NCBI RefSeq assembly: GCF_001029285.1
Contig: NZ_LDZY01000007.1
Coordinates: 1-64,000, forward strand
Source: Desulfosporosinus acididurans
GTDB lineage: Bacteria; Bacillota; Desulfitobacteriia; Desulfitobacteriales; Desulfitobacteriaceae
Length of the DNA: 64,000 bases
Direction: 5' to 3'
Made by a program: the position numbers and the translations under genes. Below the pieces are notes generated by a model. That model ran no database searches. It saw nothing but the letters and a program-made list of their open reading frames with translations, and was not told the origin of the DNA. Every line of letters begins with the position of its first letter. Position 1 is the first letter of the stretch. Shown here piece by piece: positions 1 to 61,749 of the stretch.

Positions 1-207
<207 letters not shown>

Positions 208-325
208 AAAAAGATACGTTAGCAAAGGGAACGTGGCTCAAATGGTTCCGAAAAGACGAAGCTAGAAAAAGACTCTATGTAGTTTTGAGAGAACAGAGTT
301 CGAAAAGGACAACTGAATCTCAGAG

Positions 326-442
326 ATCTGGTGATCATGCCGGAGGGGTTCCACCCGTTTCCATACCGAACACGGAAGTTAAGACCTCCAGGGCCAAGGA
401 TACTTGGGGCGCAGGCTCCTGGGAAAGTAGGTCATCGCCAGG
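326..442 (+). rRNA. 5S ribosomal RNA
   Basis: A 117-nt sequence with the canonical 5S core CCGAACACGGAAGTTAAG (366-383) and the terminal helix formed by TCTGGTGAT at the start and ATCGCCAGG at the end. It lies about 120 nt after the 23S end, as expected for a 23S-5S operon, and is followed directly by a terminator. Confidence 0.96.
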
Positions 443-452
443 TAAAACAAGC

Positions 453-49617: not shown

Positions 49618-49680
49618 TGGAACGATTATCCCTCTCCAAACATAAATCATATTATGGGATGCCTTAAAGGAGAGGGTGCT

Positions 49681-51273
49681 ATGGAGCTAAAAGGTGATGT
49701 TAACGAATGTCTTGCTAAAGCCAGGAGCTATGTAGCAGAGGGCATAGAACAAATTGTAACAGGAAATCTTGATGAAATGCACGGAGTATCTCCAAGTCCG
49801 GGAGCTTCAGCCCTCGCTGCTCTTGCCCTTCTGGCAATAGGAAGAGGGTTTGAAAGCGCCCAAAGGCAAGGAGTTCAGTGGTTATGGCAAAATCGCCGCG
49901 GAGGTTGGGGGAAATTTCCCGGCGACCAGCCTGATCCGGAAATAACTCAGATCGTTAATTCAGTTATACAAGGAAGTGAGGGGGGCTGGAGAGCTAAAAT
50001 CCGGCTTTTATCTCAGGCCCGGCAATTTTCAGAGATGATATTATCTTTAGGTCAAAGGGTTGTGCCAGGTTTAGAAGGACCTACTCCGGAAGAAATCTTG
50101 CTTCCCAATATTCTTCAAGACCAAGTTTTGACCAAATTACCTCTCTATGGTCGTCCGGTCGTCGTTGCAGCATCAATTCTTGCTTCCGATTCCCCAGAGG
50201 GAATCAGCCAAGGAGTCAACTATCTTCTGGAAACGCAAATGTCTGACGGTTCCTGGGCCGAGGATATTGTGGCTACAAGTTTAGGTATCTTAGCTCTCCT
50301 GCGGCGGGGCGGCAATAGTAAACGCGCTGAGAAAGCAGGGCAATGGTTGGTTTCCAAGCAGTACTCCAGCGGCGGCTGGCCGGCCTTCGACCAGCTTAAA
50401 GTCTGGGCGGTGGGCTGGGCAGTATGTGTTTTTGGCGAACAGCTGAAAAGGAATGAAACGTATCCTTGGCTTTCTCAGGCAGTGGATTATCTTAAGCAAG
50501 GGCAGAATTCCGACGGGAGTTACGGAAGCACTCCTCCGCATACTCATCCGGATCTGGACGATACCTCTGTTGCCATAATGGCTTATCATCAGATGCTTGG
50601 TAAGCAGAATAAGCAGGGCGTAGAGCTGCTGAGAAGACTGCAAAATTCTGATGGAAGCTGGGGAACATTTCCCAGCTTTACTGGAGCCCCCCCCGCTGTC
50701 TCCTCGGATTTTCCTGTCTATATCTCAAGTGTTGATGTGACGATTCATGTTTTGGAAGCGTTATGGAGTTTCTCCCGAGGGCAAAATGAAACAATTTGGC
50801 GAGGACTTAATTGGCTGATTTCTCAACAAGATAAGGAGGGCGGTTTTCCGGCCTCTTGGTTTGAAGGGAGAGTCTACAGCACGGCTCAGGTCCTCGAACT
50901 TCTTAGTAAATGGAGAATTAGCTGGGAACGCTGGACAATTCCGCGTAATATTCAAGCGGCTCGCAAAAAGGGATTGGAGTTTTTGCTCAAAGCTCAGAAT
51001 CAAGGAGACTGGGGTTCGATTGTGGAGACGGGATTGGCCTTATCGGGATTATGGAGGTATGGCCAATTCGTACCCAAGGAGGTCATAGATAAGGGTATCC
51101 AGAATCTTCTTAGTGCGCAAAAAGCCAATGGTTCCTTTCGGCCGTCATATCGCGGAATCTATGCTAAAGGCTGGAATTATGAGGAACCCCTGACAACGGC
51201 TTTAACTGCTATTCGGGCCTTACAGCGATATCAGATCATAAATACTCCCAAACGATCGTTTTTGGGTTTCTGA
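49681..51273 (+). CDS. Squalene-hopene cyclase/sporulenol synthase-like terpene cyclase
   Basis: A 530-aa protein made of QW-type repeats (QMSDGSW, QNSDGSY, QNSDGSW, QQDKEGGF, QNQGDW, QKANGSF), the mark of class II terpene cyclases and prenyltransferases. The protonating DXDD motif is present as D291-L-D293-D294. At 530 residues it is about 100 shorter than hopene cyclases, mainly at the N-terminal side. ATG 49681 follows AAAGGAGAGGG; the upstream open frame would cross the topB terminator and is rejected. Probable cyclisation of a long polyprenyl chain at the membrane; substrate and product are unknown. A terminator separates it from the next operon, but the theme (isoprenoid, UbiB, methyltransferase) suggests a link. 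Confidence 0.8.
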   Translation: MELKGDVNECLAKARSYVAEGIEQIVTGNLDEMHGVSPSPGASALAALALLAIGRGFESAQRQGVQWLWQNRRGGWGKFPGDQPDPEITQIVNSVIQGSEGGWRAKIRLLSQARQFSEMILSLGQRVVPGLEGPTPEEILLPNILQDQVLTKLPLYGRPVVVAASILASDSPEGISQGVNYLLETQMSDGSWAEDIVATSLGILALLRRGGNSKRAEKAGQWLVSKQYSSGGWPAFDQLKVWAVGWAVCVFGEQLKRNETYPWLSQAVDYLKQGQNSDGSYGSTPPHTHPDLDDTSVAIMAYHQMLGKQNKQGVELLRRLQNSDGSWGTFPSFTGAPPAVSSDFPVYISSVDVTIHVLEALWSFSRGQNETIWRGLNWLISQQDKEGGFPASWFEGRVYSTAQVLELLSKWRISWERWTIPRNIQAARKKGLEFLLKAQNQGDWGSIVETGLALSGLWRYGQFVPKEVIDKGIQNLLSAQKANGSFRPSYRGIYAKGWNYEEPLTTALTAIRALQRYQIINTPKRSFLGF

Positions 51274-51292
51274 GTTAAAGATTAAAATCAAT

Positions 51293-51345
51293 ACTATCCA
51301 GGCCGGATTTTTAGCAATAAAGATTTTGGCCTGGATAGTTTAGTT
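51293..51345 (+). terminator. Terminator of the cyclase gene
   Basis: A perfect 12-bp stem, ACTATCCAGGCC (51293-51304) / GGCCTGGATAGT (51328-51339), with a 23-nt loop and T-rich continuation. Confidence 0.75.
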
Positions 51346-51470
51346 TGTTTCCTTGAGATGATTGTAAGAACTTTGGAAATTAGTGTGAGTTAGAAAAAGA
51401 GTCATAATTGGGTATCTTGGAATATTATAGATTATGACGTTGAGGAAGGTTAAAAAGGAGCGCTTTTCCC

Positions 51471-52817
51471 GTGCTTGAAATGATTTTTCAGCATTTTGGC
51501 CGATATCAAGAGATTGTTTCCGTGCTGATTCGCCATGGATTTGGCTTTATTCTCTTTGAAAGCAAGGGCCTAAAAAGCCAGGGGAAAAATGAAGTTGTCA
51601 TGGCACATCTTGGTCAGCGGATTCGCCGAGTTTTGAACGAGCTAGGTCCAACGTTTATAAAACTTGGTCAGTTTGCGAGCACACGCCCGGATATTATCCC
51701 TTTACCCATTATTCATGAGTTGGAGCAGCTTCAAGACAGGGTTCCTCAGGTTCCCTTTGCTCTTATTAGCCGTACTATCGAGCAGGAGTTAGGAGCTCCA
51801 ATCCAAGAAATATTTCAGGACATTACGCCTTCTCCCTTAGCATCGGCTTCGATTGGCCAAGTCCATGTCGGCCGCTTGAAATCCGGCGCACCGGTTGCCG
51901 TTAAAGTCCAGCGCCCCGATACGGGAGTCATTGAAACGGATTTGGAAATTTTGAGAGAAATCATTCCTGTCGTGGAGTATCGTTTCCCAAACTTAAAACG
52001 CTATTACCTCCGGGGCATACTTGCGGAATTTTCGAGATGGCTGCAAGAAGAACAGGATTATTTAGCGGAGGGCAAAAACGCTGAGAGGATGGCACAGGGA
52101 TTCAGCAAAGATCCGCATGTAATTTTTCCACAAATCTATTGGGCTCATACAACCAAAAAGGTTCTGACTATGTCCTATCTTGAAGGAATAAAACTTAATG
52201 AACGACAGAAAATCTTAACTCTTTATGATGGCAGAACAATCGCTGAGCTTTTAGGGCGGGCATTACTCCTGCAAATTTTAAGGGACGGTTTTTTCCATGG
52301 AGACCCCCATCCCGGAAACATTATCGTTTTATCCGGAGGAAGGATTGGATTTATCGATTTCGGGATTGTAGGAGTTTTAAATCCGCGTTTAAAACGACAG
52401 TTGTTGAAGGCAATCTTGGCCTTAAGACGGCGTAATTCTCAAGCCTTGGCTGGAGCTATATTGCGGTTGGGAGTTTCTTCGAAAAGGGTTGACTTTGCAA
52501 GCTTATGTCAGGACCTTGCGGAGATACAACGAAGACATTTGGACGTTCCCTTTGGTCAAGTGGATTTGCAGAAGGTCATTAACGACTGTATGAATCTGGC
52601 TTTTCAATATGAGCTTGAATTCCCTCCTGAGTTTATCCTCTTAGGTAAATCACTGTTAATTCTTGAAGGAATTATTCATGAACTCGATCCTTCCATGAGT
52701 TTAGCAGAGTTAATCAAACCCTTGCGGCGTTTTTGGCTTTGGGAGCAGTGGAGCATAAAAGACTGGTTCAAAAAAGTATTGACGTCTAAGAAGGTGTTAA
52801 ACCATGATTCAGGTTAA
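51471..52817 (+). CDS. UbiB/ABC1-family atypical kinase
   Basis: A 448-aa protein of the UbiB/Coq8/ABC1 family. The family-specific KxGQ motif is K64-L-G-Q67, and the catalytic-loop HGDPHPGNI at about 276-284 and FIDFG at about 297 are intact. Unlike E. coli UbiB, no C-terminal membrane helices are seen, and the protein is about 100 residues shorter. Family members are ATPases that support quinone or isoprenoid-lipid metabolism. It starts at GTG 51471 behind AAAGGAG, and its end overlaps the next ATPase gene by 14 nt. First gene of an operon with an ABC transporter and methyltransferase. Confidence 0.9.
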   Translation: MLEMIFQHFGRYQEIVSVLIRHGFGFILFESKGLKSQGKNEVVMAHLGQRIRRVLNELGPTFIKLGQFASTRPDIIPLPIIHELEQLQDRVPQVPFALISRTIEQELGAPIQEIFQDITPSPLASASIGQVHVGRLKSGAPVAVKVQRPDTGVIETDLEILREIIPVVEYRFPNLKRYYLRGILAEFSRWLQEEQDYLAEGKNAERMAQGFSKDPHVIFPQIYWAHTTKKVLTMSYLEGIKLNERQKILTLYDGRTIAELLGRALLLQILRDGFFHGDPHPGNIIVLSGGRIGFIDFGIVGVLNPRLKRQLLKAILALRRRNSQALAGAILRLGVSSKRVDFASLCQDLAEIQRRHLDVPFGQVDLQKVINDCMNLAFQYELEFPPEFILLGKSLLILEGIIHELDPSMSLAELIKPLRRFWLWEQWSIKDWFKKVLTSKKVLNHDSG

Positions 52818-53757
52818 AGGATTATCGAAGATTTATACAAAAGCTCGGGGAAAGAATAAGGAGGCAATTTCAAACAGCATTGTTGGGCTTAAAGATGTCA
52901 CCTTTCATGTTCGGCTGGGTGAAGTATTTGGCTTATTAGGACCCAATGGCGCAGGGAAGACCACGGTAATCCGCCATTTAATGGGTTTTCTAAAACCGGA
53001 CGCCGGATTTGCCCGGATCAAGAGCTTAGATTGTTGGGAAGAGTCCAAGGAGGTTAAAGCTTTCGTGGGGTATCTTCCCGGAGAAATGAATTTTCTTAAA
53101 GAGATGTCTGGACTTGAGTTTTTGAATCTAATGGCAGGAATGCATGGGAACCGTCTCGTTTTTTCAAGGCGGCGAGATGCTTTAGCTGAGCACTTGGATC
53201 TTAACTTAAAACAGCCTATTAAAAAAATGTCCAAAGGGATGAAACAAAAATTAGGGATTATTAACACGATGATGTTGGATGCCGAGGTTTTAATTTTAGA
53301 TGAACCTACCTCTGGTCTCGACCCCCTGATGCAAAAAGTATTTATCGATTTAGTTTTAGAGGAAAAGAACCGTGGAAAAACCATCTTAATTTCTTCACAT
53401 ATGTTTCCGGAGATAGAACGGACATGTGACAGGGTAGGGATCATTCGGGCAGGGAAGCTGGCCGCTGTCGAAGGTATTCAAAAACTGCGGCAGGAACAAC
53501 GCCGGACTTTTGAAATTACGCTGGAAACTCCTGAACAAGCTCAACTTATCTGTGAAAGCGGTTTAAAAGCTGGCCGAATCGGCGCTAATCAAGTTTTCGT
53601 TGAAATTCAGGGTGATATGAATCCGCTTTTAAAGGTTTTAGCTCAAGTTCAGGTTAAGGATTTTTTGCAGAGGATGACGGAATTAGAAGAGGCATTTATG
53701 CAGTTCTACGAAAGGGGGGAGGCGGTTGAACAGAGCATTATTTCGAGCCATGTTTAA
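52804..53757 (+). CDS. ABC transporter ATP-binding protein
   Basis: A 317-aa ATPase of the ABC-2 export type. Walker A GPNGAGKT (46-53), signature MSKGMKQKL, and Walker B LILDEPTSGLDP with D166 and E167. A C-terminal extension of about 100 residues resembles the accessory domain of drug/lipid-type exporters. It starts inside the end of the UbiB-like gene (14-nt overlap) and overlaps the permease gene by 32 nt. One ATPase thus serves two different membrane subunits. Confidence 0.93.
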   Translation: MIQVKGLSKIYTKARGKNKEAISNSIVGLKDVTFHVRLGEVFGLLGPNGAGKTTVIRHLMGFLKPDAGFARIKSLDCWEESKEVKAFVGYLPGEMNFLKEMSGLEFLNLMAGMHGNRLVFSRRRDALAEHLDLNLKQPIKKMSKGMKQKLGIINTMMLDAEVLILDEPTSGLDPLMQKVFIDLVLEEKNRGKTILISSHMFPEIERTCDRVGIIRAGKLAAVEGIQKLRQEQRRTFEITLETPEQAQLICESGLKAGRIGANQVFVEIQGDMNPLLKVLAQVQVKDFLQRMTELEEAFMQFYERGEAVEQSIISSHV

Positions 53758-54526
53758 AAGACAAAGTAAAAAAACCTGCAGCTATGCCTTGGGTCTGTCC
53801 CTTTATAATCTTTTGTTGATTGGGGTTTTCCCGGCCTTGTCTCAGTCGAGTAGTATAACTAAACTATCTCAGAACTTGCCGAAATTGGCGCGGGTTTTTA
53901 GGCTGACTTCAGATTATGCTCTCAGTCGTTTTGAATCTTTTGCTGCCAGTCAATGCTTCGGGCAGGTTTGGGTCCTGGTTATGGGAATCTACACCATAAG
54001 TACGGCTAACGAATTAATAGCCCAATATGTTTCCGAGGGTGGAATGGCCTATTTGCTGTCCTCTCCTGCAGGACGGCGGGAGGTTTTTTTAACCCAGGCT
54101 GCGGTGCTCATCAGTGGATTGGTTCTTATAGTTCTTCTGACGGAGTTGGGGATATGGGCAGAAGCAAAACTATTTGCCTTATCGTTGGCCAAAAAAGCCT
54201 ATCTTAGTCTGGGAGTCCTGGCTGTTGCCCTGTTTCTCACCGTAGGCTCCTACAGCTTATTCTTTTCAACCCTTTTTAATAATGAGGAATACGTTATTCT
54301 GAGTGCTGCTTGTTTGGCGTTTAGCGGTTATGCCCTCGACATTTTTTCGGGTCTTGATGATCGCTTTGCCTGGGTTAAATATCTTACGATCTTTGGCTGG
54401 TTTCGTCCTCAAGAAGTACTGGAAGGAGACACGCCCGCTTGGCAAACCGTTTCATTAATGACCCTTTCAACGGCCTTTTTGACCCTTGCCTGTTATGTTT
54501 TTGAGAGGAAGGATCTCTGCATTTAG
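53726..54526 (+). CDS. ABC-2-type permease, subunit A
   Basis: A 266-aa membrane protein with about six hydrophobic segments. It starts at TTG 53726 behind GGGGGGAGG, inside the ATPase gene. It is paralogous to the permease at 55624: both have a motif near MAY(L/P)LS(S/A)P, a FRPQEVL segment before the last helix and a final F.RK.L.I. The pair most likely forms a heterodimeric export channel. Cargo unknown. Confidence 0.85.
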   Translation: MNRALFRAMFKRQSKKTCSYALGLSLYNLLLIGVFPALSQSSSITKLSQNLPKLARVFRLTSDYALSRFESFAASQCFGQVWVLVMGIYTISTANELIAQYVSEGGMAYLLSSPAGRREVFLTQAAVLISGLVLIVLLTELGIWAEAKLFALSLAKKAYLSLGVLAVALFLTVGSYSLFFSTLFNNEEYVILSAACLAFSGYALDIFSGLDDRFAWVKYLTIFGWFRPQEVLEGDTPAWQTVSLMTLSTAFLTLACYVFERKDLCI

Positions 54527-54571
54527 AATGAAGAAACAATTTGCTTGGAAAAGTATGGAGGAGTGAGACGC

Positions 54572-55618
54572 TTGGACGTAAGTATGTTGTCCTTGCTGGC
54601 AAAAACCACCAGTATGATGGAATACCTTGGTTTTTTGTGGGTGGTTCAAACCGGTTTAGAGCTAAATCTTTGGGCGGAGATGGAAACAGCAAGAAGTTTA
54701 AAAGAACTTATGATCATACATCCTGAGTGGGATGAAATCTTGTTAGATCATTGGTTAGAACAAGCTCACTATATGGAGCTGCTAACCAAGAAGAATGATT
54801 TTTTTCAAGCGACGAAATTAGCAAAAGCTATTAATAAATATAGAAGCCTTGGCTTAGAGGCCTTATATAAGGAACTCGTAGAGCATTGGGCCATAGGCTT
54901 TGCCGAACTTCCTCGTCTGATTACCAAACAACGCGCAAAATTAACGTTAGAGAAAGATATGGAAGAAGAACTGATTGCCAAAGCGTCCATCGCCTCTGAG
55001 CCATTCGTCTGGCCCTACTTGCGCAGTAAGTGTCAAAAAGAACAATGGAAGAGTGTCTTGGATCTGGGTTGCGGAGAAGGACGTTATTTAAAGATCTTAG
55101 GCAGCGAATTTTCAGATCTATGCGGAGTAGGTATTGAAATGAATCCTGCCGTTGCTGAAAGAGCGCAGGAAAAAGTTAAAGAACATGACGGAAGAATCCG
55201 GATTCTCTGTCAGGATATTTTCTCCTTAGTTTATCAGCAAAAAGACTCTCTCTTGGAATTAGGTAACTTCGATCTTTGCCTGCTCAACAATAGTATCTAC
55301 TATTTCACCCAGGAACAACGAATTCAACTTCTGGGAAGCATTAGGGAATTTTTAAAGCCGGGCGGCCAAGTAGGGATCTTAACAGCAGTACGCAAGGGCT
55401 CTCCTGTTCGAGTTTTTCGGACTCATCTTCCTCAAAATCTTATGAGCTTCTTTCTGGCCTGCCATCAGGGCTTCGAGGGACTTCCCACCACAGAGGAAAT
55501 TAGATCTTTATTGCTCCAAACCGGATACGACGATGTTGATATGGCGGTTATGCCTTTGGGAACGTCCCACTATTTCTTTGCCAGAAAAACGGATGAGTGT
55601 CAGGAAACGTCGAGGTGA
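54572..55618 (+). CDS. SAM-dependent methyltransferase, class I
   Basis: A 348-aa protein. The N-terminal ~155 residues are helical, resembling the dimerisation/winged-helix part of small-molecule O-methyltransferases. The Rossmann domain follows, with the SAM motif VLDLGCGEG (about 161-169) and acidic loop GVGIEMN, and later LLNNSIYYF and FLKPGGQVGIL. TTG 54572 is preceded by GGAGGAG. It sits between two paralogous permease genes in the same operon and overlaps the start region of the second. It may methylate the molecule that the transporter exports (inference). Confidence 0.85.
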   Translation: MDVSMLSLLAKTTSMMEYLGFLWVVQTGLELNLWAEMETARSLKELMIIHPEWDEILLDHWLEQAHYMELLTKKNDFFQATKLAKAINKYRSLGLEALYKELVEHWAIGFAELPRLITKQRAKLTLEKDMEEELIAKASIASEPFVWPYLRSKCQKEQWKSVLDLGCGEGRYLKILGSEFSDLCGVGIEMNPAVAERAQEKVKEHDGRIRILCQDIFSLVYQQKDSLLELGNFDLCLLNNSIYYFTQEQRIQLLGSIREFLKPGGQVGILTAVRKGSPVRVFRTHLPQNLMSFFLACHQGFEGLPTTEEIRSLLLQTGYDDVDMAVMPLGTSHYFFARKTDECQETSR

Positions 55619-55623
55619 CGATG

Positions 55624-56430
55624 ATGAACGATGCATTGTATTGGTCAATGCTTAAATATGAAGGTAAAAAGGTCATAGGTTATTCCCTTGGTCTGATGCT
55701 TTATGAGTGGCTGATAACCTGGGTTTATCCGATTCTTATTGAATCACCTGTGATCGAAGATCTTCCAAACAGTTTTCCAACACCGGTTAAACGAGCGTTT
55801 GGCGTTTCCGAGGAAGAAACAGATATATCTTATGAATCCTATATCTCGGCGCAATTATTAGGAAGGTTCTGGACGCTGCTTATTTCCGTTTACGGAATAA
55901 GCGCATCAAATGCTCTGACTGCGCATATGCTTGAACAAGGTTTTATGGCTTATCCTTTGTCAGCACCAGTGTCCCGCTCAGAAATCATCAATACCCAAAT
56001 TGGAGTGCTTTTAACGGAATTAATGATGGTAACCGGTGCTACGGTGGGAGGGATATATTCTGCAGCAGCTTTTTTTAAGGTAACCATTGACAGGTGGGGA
56101 TTTTTCAGAATGGGAATCTTAGGGTTTTGCTTGAGTACGGTGGTCAGTGGCTACAGCATGCTCTTTGGTGTGTCCCTAAACTCAGAAGAAGTATCTGTTC
56201 CTTTGGTAAGCGCTTTAACTGTAATTTTTTATGGGCTCGACGTTATGTCATCTCTCAGTGAACGATTTGCTGGCTTGCAAAACGTAACGCCCTTTGCTCT
56301 GTTTCGCCCCCAAGAAGTTCTTCGGGGGAAATTGCTGCCGACAAAAGAATGCCTTATCTTGAGCTGTATTTCAGGAACTTGTCTGTTTCTTTCAGGGTTC
56401 GTATTCCGACGAAAGAATTTGGCAATTTAA
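55624..56430 (+). CDS. ABC-2-type permease, subunit B
   Basis: A 268-aa membrane protein with about six hydrophobic segments, a diverged paralogue of subunit A at 53726 (shared MAY(P/L)LS(A/S)P, FRPQEVL and terminal RRKNLAI features). ATG 55624 is preceded by GAGGTGACG at a normal distance; ATG 55621 and GTG 55597 are alternatives. The initiation region follows the methyltransferase stop directly. Last gene of the operon. Confidence 0.85.
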   Translation: MNDALYWSMLKYEGKKVIGYSLGLMLYEWLITWVYPILIESPVIEDLPNSFPTPVKRAFGVSEEETDISYESYISAQLLGRFWTLLISVYGISASNALTAHMLEQGFMAYPLSAPVSRSEIINTQIGVLLTELMMVTGATVGGIYSAAAFFKVTIDRWGFFRMGILGFCLSTVVSGYSMLFGVSLNSEEVSVPLVSALTVIFYGLDVMSSLSERFAGLQNVTPFALFRPQEVLRGKLLPTKECLILSCISGTCLFLSGFVFRRKNLAI

Positions 56431-57007: not shown

Positions 57008-58168
57008 ATGTCCAAAAAGTTTCTTAGTGTACTTGCGGTGACACTTCTATCCTTTACGGTAATTGTTTCAGGCTGCGGTACCCAATCCAGTGCATCGTCA
57101 TCAGGTTCATCCGATCAGTCAACAGCAAGCAGCGGAGATATTAAGATCGGCGTACCTTTACCCATGACCGGTTCTGAGGCGACCTACGGTAAAGATATGG
57201 AAAATGCTATCAAAATGGCTGTCGCCGAGGTGAATGCCAAAGGCGGAATTAATGGTAAAACATTAGGAACCGTTACAGGTGATGATGCCTGTGATCCCCA
57301 GCAAGCAACGGCAGCTGCTAATAAGTTAGTTTCTGAAGGGGTAGTTGCCATTGTCGGAGGATATTGCTCTGGCGCAGTTGTTCCAACCTTAACAATCTAC
57401 AACGAGAAAAATATTCCGTATATCGTTGAAGCTGCCAACTCATCAAAAATTACGGATGAAAATCCCGGAAATACCTTCCAAATTAATGGTACGGCTGTAC
57501 ACCAGACTCAAAAAGCAGTCGAACTCTTTAAAAAGCTGGGAGCTAAAAATGTTGCCATCGTAGAACAAGGGGATGCATATTCCTCTGATTTGGCAAAGCA
57601 AACCGAAGCTGCTTGGAAAGCCGCAGGAAATACAGTAGTTTCTCATGACGTTACTACTAAAGGAGAACAGGATTTTTCATCCTTAGTAACAAGTTTGAAA
57701 TCTAAAAATACGGATTTGGTATTTTGGACTGCCTACTATGCAGACGGTGCCCTCTTAATTAAGCAATTGCGTCAAGGCGGTTATAAAGGAGCTATTGTTG
57801 TTGGTGACGGCAGCAGCGATCCTAAACTTATCCAGATGGCCGGAGCTGCCGGAGAAGGCACCTATGTACTGTCGCCTCCCGTTGCCGAATTCCTCCCGAC
57901 GGCAAAACAGTTTGCCGATGCTTATAAAGCGAAATATGGTCAGACCCCCGGAGCTTATGCCCCGTTGGCTTATGACGGGATAAACTTGCTGGCAGATGCT
58001 ATGAAACGAGCTGGAAATACTGATGGCAAGGCGATCATTAAGGCCTTGATCGAAACCAAGGATTTCCAGGGCTTGGCCGGCAAAGTAACCTTTGCTCCCA
58101 ATAAGACGTTACAAGAGAGTAACTTTATCGTCTTGCAAATCAAGAACGGACAATTTGTTCTGCAATAA
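57008..58168 (+). CDS. livJ: Branched-chain-type amino acid ABC transporter, binding lipoprotein
   Basis: A 386-aa periplasmic-binding-type lipoprotein of the LivJ family. The lipobox VSGC puts lipid on C23; a Ser-rich linker follows, then the ligand-binding fold (GVPLPMTGSEATYGKDM and DDACDPQQATAAANKLV). Start ATG 57008 follows GAGGAGGGG. It is the first gene of livJHMGF. Since glycyl-radical genes for an amino-acid-type substrate follow, the actual ligand might be hydroxyproline or a related compound rather than leucine (inference). Confidence 0.93.
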   Translation: MSKKFLSVLAVTLLSFTVIVSGCGTQSSASSSGSSDQSTASSGDIKIGVPLPMTGSEATYGKDMENAIKMAVAEVNAKGGINGKTLGTVTGDDACDPQQATAAANKLVSEGVVAIVGGYCSGAVVPTLTIYNEKNIPYIVEAANSSKITDENPGNTFQINGTAVHQTQKAVELFKKLGAKNVAIVEQGDAYSSDLAKQTEAAWKAAGNTVVSHDVTTKGEQDFSSLVTSLKSKNTDLVFWTAYYADGALLIKQLRQGGYKGAIVVGDGSSDPKLIQMAGAAGEGTYVLSPPVAEFLPTAKQFADAYKAKYGQTPGAYAPLAYDGINLLADAMKRAGNTDGKAIIKALIETKDFQGLAGKVTFAPNKTLQESNFIVLQIKNGQFVLQ

Positions 58169-58190
58169 AAAAGTATAAAAATAACTGATG

Positions 58191-58228
58191 CTAAGGACGA
58201 CCGGGTACTTTTTCCCAGTCGTCCTTAG
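58191..58228 (+). terminator. Hairpin between livJ and livH
   Basis: CTAAGGACGACCGGG (58191-58205) and CCCAGTCGTCCTTAG (58214-58228) form a long stem with one mismatch. As in many ABC operons it probably gives extra binding-protein mRNA by partial termination or protection of the 3' end. Confidence 0.75.
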
Positions 58229-58272
58229 ACAATCTTTGTCTTTAGTTCAAAGAGGGTGAAGGGGTGCACGTT

Positions 58273-59193
58273 ATGACAGATTTTTATATTATTATTCAAC
58301 AACTTGTGAATGGATTAATTTTAGGTTCTTTTTATAGCCTTGTAGCTCTCGGTTATTCCATGGTTTACGGCATTATAAAACTTCTTAATTTTGCCCACGG
58401 GGATATTTATATGGTAGGGGCCTTTGTGGGATTTGGGGCTCTCGGTCTTTTTGGAAGTGTTTTGGGGATCGGTTGGTTAGGAATTACTGCCGCTTTGGTG
58501 ATCAGTATGGTTCTTGTGGGATTCCTAGGAATAGTAATACATAGGGTTGCCTACCAGCCCCTCTTAAATAAAAATGCCCCACGTATGTCTCTCTTAATTA
58601 CGGCGGTAGGTGTATCCTTTACCTTATTCAACGCCGTCATGGTTATGACGAGCGGGGAATATAAAGCCTTCACAACCAGTCTGAGCTATGACGGAATCAG
58701 TGTTGGGCCTCTGAATATAACCTATACTCAGATAATTATGGTGGTTGCGACGGCTGTTCTGATGCTTGGCTTATATTGGTTTATCAATCGCACTATGTAT
58801 GGCAAAGCCATGCGCGCCATAGCCCTTGATCAGGATGCCTGCCGCCTGATGGGAATTAATGTCACTAAGACCATCAGCTTAACCTTTTTCGTCGGCTCAG
58901 CCTTGGCTGCTGCTGCCGGTGTCATGGCAGGAGTTTATTATGGAAGCATTCATTTTTACATGGGTTTTATCATTGGCTTAAAGGCATTTACCGCAGCAGT
59001 TATCGGCGGAATCGGCAGTATACCGGGAGCAATGCTCGGGGGCCTTATTTTAGGCCTTTTGGAAACGGCCGGAACGCAGCTTCCTTTTGTAGGATCTGCT
59101 TGGAAAGACGTTTTTACGTTTGGCATCTTAATCCTATTGCTGGTTACAAAACCGACCGGAATTTTGGGTAAAAGCGAGATTGAGAGGATGTAG
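58273..59193 (+). CDS. livH: Branched-chain-type ABC transporter permease LivH
   Basis: A 306-aa permease with about eight transmembrane helices and the LivH signatures GYSMVYGIIKLLNFAHGDIY and AVIGGIGSIPGAMLGG. ATG 58273 is chosen with GAAGGGG 8 nt upstream; the GTG at 58264 lies in that site. Forms the channel with LivM. Confidence 0.94.
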   Translation: MTDFYIIIQQLVNGLILGSFYSLVALGYSMVYGIIKLLNFAHGDIYMVGAFVGFGALGLFGSVLGIGWLGITAALVISMVLVGFLGIVIHRVAYQPLLNKNAPRMSLLITAVGVSFTLFNAVMVMTSGEYKAFTTSLSYDGISVGPLNITYTQIIMVVATAVLMLGLYWFINRTMYGKAMRAIALDQDACRLMGINVTKTISLTFFVGSALAAAAGVMAGVYYGSIHFYMGFIIGLKAFTAAVIGGIGSIPGAMLGGLILGLLETAGTQLPFVGSAWKDVFTFGILILLLVTKPTGILGKSEIERM

Positions 59194-59196
59194 CAG

Positions 59197-60153
59197 ATGG
59201 TTAATTCTGTTGGTTTTAAAGATCGTGTGACTGAAACGATAAAGGGCAAAAAAACGCGTGTTTTATTCCTGTCCCTATTGGTTATAATCGTTGCCTTACT
59301 GCCTCTGGGTGTCAATAACTATATAGAAGAAGTTATGACGAATACGTTTTTCTATATTATTCTGGCTCTGGGATTAAACATCGTTATTGGTTATGCCGGC
59401 TTAGTTGACCTTGGCTATGCAGCCTTTTTTGCTGTAGGAGCCTATACAACGGGAATCCTTATGAGATACGGCCTGAACTTTTGGCTTACCATACCTATCG
59501 CCGTTATCTTTTGTGTTATAGCCGGGATTATCATCGGGGGACCGACCTTAAGACTGCGCAGCGATTACTTAGCTATCGTAACCTTGGGATTCGGGGAAAT
59601 TACCCGTATCACCGCCCGCAACTTAAAGGTTACAGGCGGGGCAAGTGGTTTGGTAGGTATTCAACGGCCGACTATCTTTGGCCATAAGCTGTATCAAATT
59701 ACTGATTTTTATTATACATTTTTCATCTTAGTAATTTTGGCGATTATCGTGTCTCTGCGCATCTATCATTCTCGTCTGGGACGAGCTTGGCAATATATTC
59801 GCGAAGATGAAGATGCTGCTGAAGCAATGGGCATTGATCCCGTAAAAACAAAACTCTATGCTTATATGATTGGAGCTGCTTTTGGCGGTGTGGCGGGTGC
59901 GTTTTTTGCAGTTAAGATGACCGCTATTTCACCGGAGACCTTTGCCTTTACTCAATCGGCGATGATTCTTCTGGCTGTAATCTTAGGAGGAATGGGTAAG
60001 ATTCCCGGTGCGATTCTGGGAGCCGTATTCCTGGTTTTCTTCCCGGAGATATTTCGGGAAATTGGTCAGATGCGGATGCTCTTATTTGGTATTCTCCTGG
60101 TTATTATTATGGTATTTCGCCCACAAGGTCTTTGGCCGGAACGAAAAAGCTAG
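59197..60153 (+). CDS. livM: Branched-chain-type ABC transporter permease LivM
   Basis: A 318-aa permease with about nine transmembrane helices; signatures LNIVIGYAGLVDLGYAAFFA and LGGMGKIPGAILGA. It starts 3 nt after livH. Its partner ATPases follow after a 112-nt gap. Confidence 0.94.
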   Translation: MVNSVGFKDRVTETIKGKKTRVLFLSLLVIIVALLPLGVNNYIEEVMTNTFFYIILALGLNIVIGYAGLVDLGYAAFFAVGAYTTGILMRYGLNFWLTIPIAVIFCVIAGIIIGGPTLRLRSDYLAIVTLGFGEITRITARNLKVTGGASGLVGIQRPTIFGHKLYQITDFYYTFFILVILAIIVSLRIYHSRLGRAWQYIREDEDAAEAMGIDPVKTKLYAYMIGAAFGGVAGAFFAVKMTAISPETFAFTQSAMILLAVILGGMGKIPGAILGAVFLVFFPEIFREIGQMRMLLFGILLVIIMVFRPQGLWPERKS

Positions 60154-60265
60154 AGAGGCATTTGGGTTTCAATGAACTTAGAAGTTTAATGTTTTTTACC
60201 TTCCTTATAGAAACGTTGAGAAAGCGACTTGCATGTCCGGAACTTTAAAAAAAAGGATGAGTATA

Positions 60266-61036
60266 ATGCCTATCTTAGAAGTGAAAAAGTTAACTCTTCG
60301 TTTTGGCGGGTTAACAGCAGTAAATAACCTTAGTTTCGATATGGATGAGAATTCAATTGTAAGTCTGATAGGACCCAATGGTGCAGGAAAAACGTCAGCG
60401 TTTAATTGTCTGACGGGTTTTTATAAAGGCAGTGAAGGCGATATCTTATTTCAAGGCCAAAGTATCTTTCGGCAGAAGCCGTATAAAATTACAAAATTGG
60501 GTATGGCGAGAACTTTTCAGAATTTGCGTTTATTCAAAGATATGACGGTTTTGGAAAATGTCATGTCCGGCATGCACAGCCGAACGTCTGCCGGTGTCCT
60601 GGGAGCTGTTTTAAGACTTCCCAGTCAGCGTCAGGAAGAAAAGAAAATTCGGCAGGTCAGTGAAGAGTGTCTTGACTTTGTAGGTATTTTAGATAAACAA
60701 GACCGTTTGGCCCGTAATTTGGCCTATGGTGACCAACGTCGTGTAGAGTGGGCCAGAGCTTTGGCTACTCATCCAAAACTTATTTTATTGGATGAACCGG
60801 CTGCCGGTCTCAACCATGATGAAAAAGACCAGTTAGTAGACTTAATACGACGCATTCAGAAGGATTTAGGTATCACAGTACTGTTGATAGAACATGATAT
60901 GGGGCTGGTCATGAAAGTTTCGGAAAAAATTGTGGTCATTGACTATGGCCAGAAAATAGCTGAAGGATCTTCTGAAGAAGTCAAGAACAATCCCAAAGTT
61001 ATCGAAGCCTACTTGGGTAAGGAGGATGAGGAATGA
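60266..61036 (+). CDS. livG: Branched-chain-type ABC transporter ATPase LivG
   Basis: A 256-aa ATPase: Walker A GPNGAGKTSAFN, signature LAYGDQRRVEWARAL, Walker B LILLDEPAAGLN, and the LivG-specific IEHDMGLVM. ATG 60266 is preceded by AAGGATGAG; upstream in-frame starts at 60257 and 60233 would add residues that do not match the family. It overlaps livF by 4 nt. Confidence 0.94.
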   Translation: MPILEVKKLTLRFGGLTAVNNLSFDMDENSIVSLIGPNGAGKTSAFNCLTGFYKGSEGDILFQGQSIFRQKPYKITKLGMARTFQNLRLFKDMTVLENVMSGMHSRTSAGVLGAVLRLPSQRQEEKKIRQVSEECLDFVGILDKQDRLARNLAYGDQRRVEWARALATHPKLILLDEPAAGLNHDEKDQLVDLIRRIQKDLGITVLLIEHDMGLVMKVSEKIVVIDYGQKIAEGSSEEVKNNPKVIEAYLGKEDEE

Positions 61037-61749
61037 ACGACTTAGCACTCGTCCTGCAAAATGTTGAAACGTTTTATGGGAAAATTCATGCTCTTAAAGG
61101 AGTAAGTCTGGAAGTGCCCAAGGGTAAGATCGTGACCCTGCTTGGCTCCAATGGTGCCGGAAAGACAACAACGTTAAAGACGATTTCCGGATTGATTCAA
61201 GCATCTGCAGGCAAAATCGAGTTTTATGGCCGGGATATAAGTAAAGAGAAAGCCCACAAGATTGTCAGCATGGGTTTAATCCATGTTCCCGAAGGACGGC
61301 GTATTTTCAAGGATTTAGCGGTTAAGGAAAATCTTGAACTAGGGGGATTTACCCTTAAAGATGAATCCTTGCGCCGTAAGCGAATTGAACACGTTTTTGA
61401 AATGTTTCCCCGTTTAAAAGATCGGCAAAAACAAATCGGAGGAACTCTCTCTGGTGGGGAACAGCAAATGTTAGCCATAGGCCGCGCTATGATGACTGAC
61501 CCCAAGCTTCTTTTGTTAGACGAGCCTTCCATGGGATTGGCTCCTTTGATTGTTCAAGATATTATGCGGATTATTAAGCAGCTGAATTCTGAAGGAACTA
61601 CAATCTTGCTTGTCGAGCAAAATGCTAAGATAGCCCTAAAATTAGCGGATTATGGCTATGTCTTAGAGACCGGTGAGCTGGTCATGGAAGGGGACAGTAC
61701 CGAGCTCAGGCAAGATGAGAGAATAACAAAGGCTTATCTGGGAGAATAG
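61033..61749 (+). CDS. livF: Branched-chain-type ABC transporter ATPase LivF
   Basis: A 238-aa ATPase: Walker A GSNGAGKTTTLK, signature LSGGEQQMLAIGRAM, Walker B LLLLDEPSMGLAP, and VEQNAKIALKLAD. Its start overlaps the livG stop (ATGA), so the two ATPases are translationally coupled. Confidence 0.95.
   Translation: MNDLALVLQNVETFYGKIHALKGVSLEVPKGKIVTLLGSNGAGKTTTLKTISGLIQASAGKIEFYGRDISKEKAHKIVSMGLIHVPEGRRIFKDLAVKENLELGGFTLKDESLRRKRIEHVFEMFPRLKDRQKQIGGTLSGGEQQMLAIGRAMMTDPKLLLLDEPSMGLAPLIVQDIMRIIKQLNSEGTTILLVEQNAKIALKLADYGYVLETGELVMEGDSTELRQDERITKAYLGE

Follow-up and report, generated by a model that had tools for sequence, protein, structure and literature searches.

Introduction

Does a terpene cyclase gene that stands beside an exporter operon belong to it and, if so, what do the two make and move? 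The question is raised by a window of 64,000 nucleotides from Desulfosporosinus acididurans (contig NZ_LDZY01000007.1, positions 1 to 64,000), the whole stretch of DNA analysed here. The genus is sulfate-reducing and forms spores. Its + strand holds six open reading frames (ORFs) in the order cyclase, UbiB, ATPase, permease A, methyltransferase, permease B. These encode a predicted class II terpene cyclase, a UbiB-type ATPase, the subunits of an ATP-binding cassette (ABC) exporter of the ABC-2 type, and an S-adenosylmethionine (SAM) methyltransferase. A first-pass annotation of the window had read the six genes as one unit and the cyclase as its weakest link, on account of the cyclase's own terminator. 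The six-gene order proved to be confined to one small group of species, and the cyclase-exporter link is real despite this. Cyclase and exporter make up the core, to which particular lineages have added the methyltransferase and a UbiB that lacks membrane helices. That these genes serve to produce and transport a cyclic isoprenoid lipid, with the UbiB-type ATPase assisting and the methyltransferase modifying the product where present, is given an even chance of being correct.

Gene Order in Relatives

Forty neighbourhoods of relatives were collected and their proteins clustered. The full order cyclase-UbiB-ATPase-permease A-methyltransferase-permease B was found only in the genome of the window (G000, 4.64 Mb) and in G024, G008, and G016, with the same flanking genes. 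All four species belong to one genus, Desulfosporosinus by named matches, and the expectation that the six-gene unit would be conserved in related genomes therefore failed. In two genomes (G023 and G033) this operon is present but lacks the cyclase. The arrangement in the majority of the remaining members of the genus is UbiB-methyltransferase-ATPase-single permease, and the cyclase lies at another site. These separate cyclases sit in another conserved neighbourhood, with a GNAT acetyltransferase, a histidine kinase, and a small protein with TPR matches.

Cyclase and exporter genes are also adjacent in a second family, f3. The order cyclase-ATPase-permease is present in G058, G069, G072, and G073, while G056 has methyltransferase-cyclase-ATPase with a broken permease adjoining. 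A polyprenyl synthase gene adjoins the G056 cluster. UbiB is absent from the f3 cyclase loci and is therefore an addition rather than part of the core. On the cyclase tree, well supported lineages with the genes apart lie between the two adjacency sets, so that at least two changes are needed.

Two loci depart from these patterns. L118 (G034, 92% complete) has a UbiB-ATPase-permease A-permease B operon without the methyltransferase, and no cyclase was found in that genome. At L116:8740-9440 (G049), the N-terminal part of a cyclase is fused straight to the C-terminal part of a permease, which resembles a deletion or an assembly error.

Co-Occurrence in the Order

Co-occurrence was counted in 74 genomes of the order, using presence lists compiled by hand. 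The counts leave out a weak cyclase match (G044) and a permease fragment (G007). Cyclase and permease are both present in 35 genomes and both absent from 28, with 9 having the cyclase only and 2 the permease only (Fisher 3.6e-10; the counts are inflated by shared ancestry, which such p-values ignore). Outside the genus the counts are 12 with both, 7 with the cyclase only, 0 with the permease only, and 25 with neither. In f3, 6 genomes have both, 19 have neither, and none has one without the other. Presence and absence of the two genes vary together between species of one genus in three f3 genera. The methyltransferase was found only in genomes with the cyclase (25/25).

The contrasts between species of one genus and the twofold adjacency are safer evidence than the p-values. 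Co-occurrence and adjacency in two separate lineages support the view that the cyclase belongs evolutionarily with the exporter and the methyltransferase. The methyltransferase is strongly linked, and UbiB is linked only within the genus. The tie of the cyclase, described earlier as the weakest link, is thus among the better supported, and the membership of UbiB holds within the genus but not outside it.

Exporter, UbiB, and Methyltransferase

The predicted ABC-2 exporter has an ATPase with Walker A and B motifs (GPNGAGKT and LILDEPT) together with ABC-2 permeases, permease B by itself falling slightly below the Pfam cut-off. The best NCBIfam match of the ATPase is drrA, below cut-off (181.6 vs. 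312.5 bits). The annotation had allowed for the ABC subunits matching a known export family with an unrelated substrate; no specific known export family was matched, and the ATPase and permease fall into a broad, unnamed group of ABC-2 pairs within the phylum. DrrAB-like exporters share the design of one ATPase and an ABC-2 permease, but here there are two paralogous permeases (35% identity) with the methyltransferase gene between them, as the first-pass annotation had noted.

In the permease tree, the permeases of the order group in a single clade, separate from related ABC-2 permeases of other clostridia (100/100); the idea that the f3 exporter is an ABC neighbour by chance was rejected on this ground. 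The A permeases and the B permeases of the window's clade make up two separate branches, both outside the group with the single permeases of f3 and most of the genus. Since they are the sole two such permeases in G000, A and B jointly stand in for the single permease. Most relatives carry one permease; the split exporter read from this locus is a local feature. A permease profile applied to other clostridia returned related ABC-2 pairs, and there was no cyclase or methyltransferase match in the short flanks of the best ones.

The operon UbiB shares the KxGQ motif (KLGQ, 64), HGDPHPGN (276), DFG, and the ABC1 domain with the UbiB/COQ8 family, and it scores 385.8 bits with the UbiB-family model, below the 487.6 cut-off. 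It is a second copy in its genome and, unlike full-length UbiB, lacks the two C-terminal membrane helices by hydropathy. The other UbiB of the genome (C13; L205) is a 561-residue frame with helices at 498-516 and 537-555. At L012 (G014:C68), the UbiB beside the methyltransferase seems to be broken by stops and frame shifts, and another UbiB copy is present elsewhere in G014.

The methyltransferase contains DLGCGEG, which fits the DxGCGxG motif, and a Rossmann fold, as expected of a class I SAM methyltransferase. Its fold matches C- and O-methyltransferases alike (Z 23.8 to 19). These rank together, and the fold does not single out a substrate.

The Cyclase and Its Substrate

The cyclase read from position 49681 contains DLDD at residues 291-294 and six QW-like repeats, in agreement with the first-pass annotation in position and family. 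The AlphaFold model (pLDDT, the predicted local distance difference test, 84; pTM, the predicted template modelling score, 0.88) matches class II cyclases over residues 12-531. Structural matches along the chain are drimenyl diphosphate synthase, squalene-hopene cyclase, MstE, and copalyl diphosphate synthase. With the DXDD motif, the QW repeats, and the predicted two-domain alpha-alpha barrel fold, the class II assignment is well supported, which is not the case for any assignment of substrate.

DLDDT is invariant in all 26 aligned relatives, as are many surrounding positions, and a C-terminal YA...YEEP segment is kept in the same alignment. The Pfam model search found a single clear cyclase per genome, weak matches aside. 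Named relatives are Desulfosporosinus, with a cyclase of up to 95% identity (strain FKB), Paradesulfitobacterium, Acididesulfobacillus, Candidatus Dichloromethanomonas, and other Peptococcaceae. Every match in a search of the class lies within one order. A conserved-peptide scan of species genomes returned only members of the Desulfosporosinus/Peptococcaceae group and some Bacillota/Clostridiales.

Squalene is an unlikely substrate, because no squalene/phytoene synthase (SQS_PSY family) was found in any of the 74 genomes; the same search was positive in 7 of 14 control genomes. Squalene was rejected on this basis. A second known precursor is tetraprenyl-beta-curcumene. In Bacillus subtilis, YtpB and SqhC make the tetraprenyl curcumene and sporulene of spores (PMC11708026). 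A YtpB gene (DUF2600) is present in the genome of the window (C4:356095-357078), adjoining a polyprenyl synthase gene. The two are convergent (L105:9527-11589, C4 at about 356000-358100), and the pair is conserved in the family. The pair also occurs in G007, a genome without any class II cyclase, where it is possibly an orphan C35 terpene route.

These genes bear on a sporulenol-type alternative, which we consider unlikely. Here YtpB would turn heptaprenyl diphosphate into tetraprenyl-beta-curcumene, from which the cyclase would form a pentacyclic C35 spore lipid in the manner of SqhC, and the exporter and methyltransferase would deliver and decorate it at the spore. As in the B. subtilis pathway, a class II cyclase and YtpB are present in one spore-forming genome and squalene is not needed. 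The cyclase is also the only clear one in the genome, and YtpB is present in almost every f1 genome. In contrast to that pathway, YtpB is here unlinked to the cyclase, and the description in PMC11708026 includes no exporter and no methyltransferase. Several f1 genomes have YtpB but no cyclase, and YtpB is absent from all f3 genomes, including six with the cyclase. Strict YtpB dependence was rejected for this reason; tetraprenyl-beta-curcumene may be the substrate in f1, but it cannot be the substrate throughout. The sporulation gene spoIVA is present in all clear cyclase genomes, but it is carried by 67 of the 74 genomes overall and is uninformative as a link to sporulation.

The protein also differs from hopene cyclases. 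Squalene-hopene cyclase of Alicyclobacillus acidocaldarius (1SQC/2SQC) shares the DXDD motif, the QW repeats, and the two alpha-alpha barrel domains (Z 30.8 over 467 residues), but it has about 630 residues against 530, some 100 more, with 22% identity in the structural alignment. The score with hopene-cyclase model TIGR01507 is far below the cut-off (48.7 vs. 431.1 bits).

The best structural match is instead the drimenyl diphosphate synthase SsDMS of Streptomyces showdoensis (7XQ4 and relatives; Z 32.5 over 448 residues). It is of similar length, and its DVDDT aligns with DLDDT in a co-linear profile match across this region. The cyclase could accordingly be a prenyl-diphosphate cyclase of the drimenyl or copalyl diphosphate synthase type, making a smaller secreted terpenoid (a signal or antibiotic) that the exporter pumps out, although this too is improbable. 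Such an enzyme would require neither squalene synthase nor YtpB, which fits f3, and the drug exporter drrA is the best named model of the ATPase, though below cut-off. Against it, the Z gap to squalene-hopene cyclase is less than 2, squalene-hopene cyclase scores higher by sequence profile, and genus-wide conservation is less usual for an antibiotic. SsDMS shares 18-19% identity with this cyclase and acts on farnesyl diphosphate. We know of no ABC, UbiB, or methyltransferase linkage for drimenyl diphosphate synthase.

Layout of the Locus and Upstream Element

The features of the locus are listed in Table 1. By their Pfam E-values (1e-7 to 1e-70, with the exception of permease B alone, 2e-5, below its cut-off), the predicted proteins are far beyond chance. 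The overlapping gene arrangement of the operon and its KLGQ and HGDPHPGN motifs were confirmed, with overlaps of 14 nucleotides (UbiB/ATPase), 32 nucleotides (ATPase/permease A), and 22 nucleotides (methyltransferase/permease B).

Table 1. Positions of the predicted features in the window.
Feature	Position	Strand	Remarks
Promoter- or operator-like element GGAAC-N17-CATAnnTnATAnTATG before cyclase	49619..49656	+	Conserved among cyclase orthologues
Class II (DXDD) terpene cyclase, beta-gamma didomain, 530 aa	49681..51273	+	Pfam SQHop_cyclase_C 2.7e-23
Terminator-like hairpin 3' of cyclase	51293..51339	+	-27.7 kcal/mol, z -7.3, weak T tract
UbiB/ABC1-family ATPase-kinase, 448 aa	51471..52817	+	ABC1 3.1e-70
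ABC ATPase, DrrA-like, ABC-2 exporter type	52804..53757	+	ABC_tran 1.3e-25
ABC-2 permease A	53726..54526	+	ABC2_membrane_2 31.7 bits, above cut-off
SAM methyltransferase, N-terminal helical/winged-helix part, O- or C-methyltransferase type	54545..55618	+	Methyltransf_25 3.4e-14; precise start codon uncertain
ABC-2 permease B	55597..56430	+	Paralogue of permease A; ABC2_membrane_2 24.3 bits, slightly below cut-off

The cyclase start at 49681 is preceded by AAAGGAGA, a strong ribosome-binding site, and an alternative longer ORF from 49528 opens within the terminator hairpin of the upstream gene. The start at 49681 is therefore taken as the right one. The hairpin 3' of the cyclase, recognised earlier as its terminator, is retained in G024 and absent from the same operon in G008.

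The upstream element sits no more than about 70 bases from the cyclase start. It is clear and full-length in 15 of the 24 cyclase orthologues and divergent in 2 more, across both families and both gene contexts. Loci bearing it are the window, L079, L081-L087, L095, L097, L098, and L100. It scores 17.7-27.1 at cyclases against 15.4 bits for the best non-cyclase match in about 1 Mb of loci. Since the scored sites had themselves served to train the matrix, what counts is that nothing comparable occurs at other places. Over the whole genome of the window, the only perfect match is the cyclase copy. In some relatives GGAAC is followed by TTCC, which creates a near-palindrome. No copy was found before the UbiB-ABC operon in the scan of about 1 Mb, and shared regulation of cyclase and operon was rejected. 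A scan for sporulation sigma-factor consensus sequences upstream of the cyclase and UbiB gave merely scattered matches. The element is no clean fit to a sigma-K, sigma-E, or extracytoplasmic function (ECF) promoter, and no regulator is claimed.

The left edge of the window (1-443) contains the end of a 23S rRNA gene and a 5S rRNA gene. Directly downstream of the locus is a branched-chain amino acid type ABC uptake operon (57008-61749), which all four species that have the six-gene order retain.

Discussion

The reading of the locus as one for synthesis and transport of a cyclic isoprenoid lipid is weakened by several observations. Nine genomes have the cyclase without the permease (some are incomplete), and two have the permease without the cyclase. 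The cyclase and the operon are far apart in most Desulfosporosinus genomes, and the upstream element is not common to both. UbiB does not track the cyclase outside the genus. Shared ancestry also inflates the co-occurrence counts.

The separation in most of the genus would also be compatible with two unrelated units, in which the UbiB-ABC-methyltransferase operon has a different substrate (quinone intermediates or drug efflux) and adjacency to the cyclase in one small clade is due to chance; the cyclase's own upstream element and 3' hairpin and the occurrence of the broad ABC-2 group elsewhere without a cyclase favour this, but it is very improbable given the separate adjacency in f3, the strong co-occurrence in f3 and the whole order, and a methyltransferase found solely with the cyclase.

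For the cyclic isoprenoid lipid reading, we infer ring formation, substrate, methylation target, transport direction, UbiB role, and place of product use as follows. The DLDD of the cyclase would protonate a double bond of a long prenyl chain and so bring about ring closure. Where present, the methyltransferase would modify the cyclic product or its precursor. The exporter, here probably a heterodimer of permeases A and B and in most relatives a single permease, would carry the product to the outer leaflet or release it from the cell. The UbiB-type ATPase may free a very hydrophobic intermediate from the membrane for the cyclase, methyltransferase, and exporter. The product would be a methylated, translocated lipid.

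A more specific and rather doubtful form of this reading is a cyclic polyprenyl lipid pathway particular to the order, without squalene or tetraprenyl-beta-curcumene. A polyprenyl diphosphate, polyprenol, or quinone tail would be cyclised directly and methylated, and a dedicated ABC exporter would place it in the outer leaflet or the spore, with the soluble UbiB as lipid extractor. No literature on this cyclase-exporter system was found in open papers, subscription journals being mostly outside the coverage.

Among bacterial sterol surrogates and geological biomarkers, hopanoid-like lipids are the best known, but the genes by which their producers are identified are squalene-based. By that standard, a family of cyclases in spore-forming anaerobes without squalene synthase would be overlooked. 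The genetically linked exporter would offer a way to study how lipids of this kind cross a membrane or leave it. The molecular task of UbiB is debated, and if the cyclic isoprenoid lipid reading is true, UbiB would gain a partner outside quinone synthesis.

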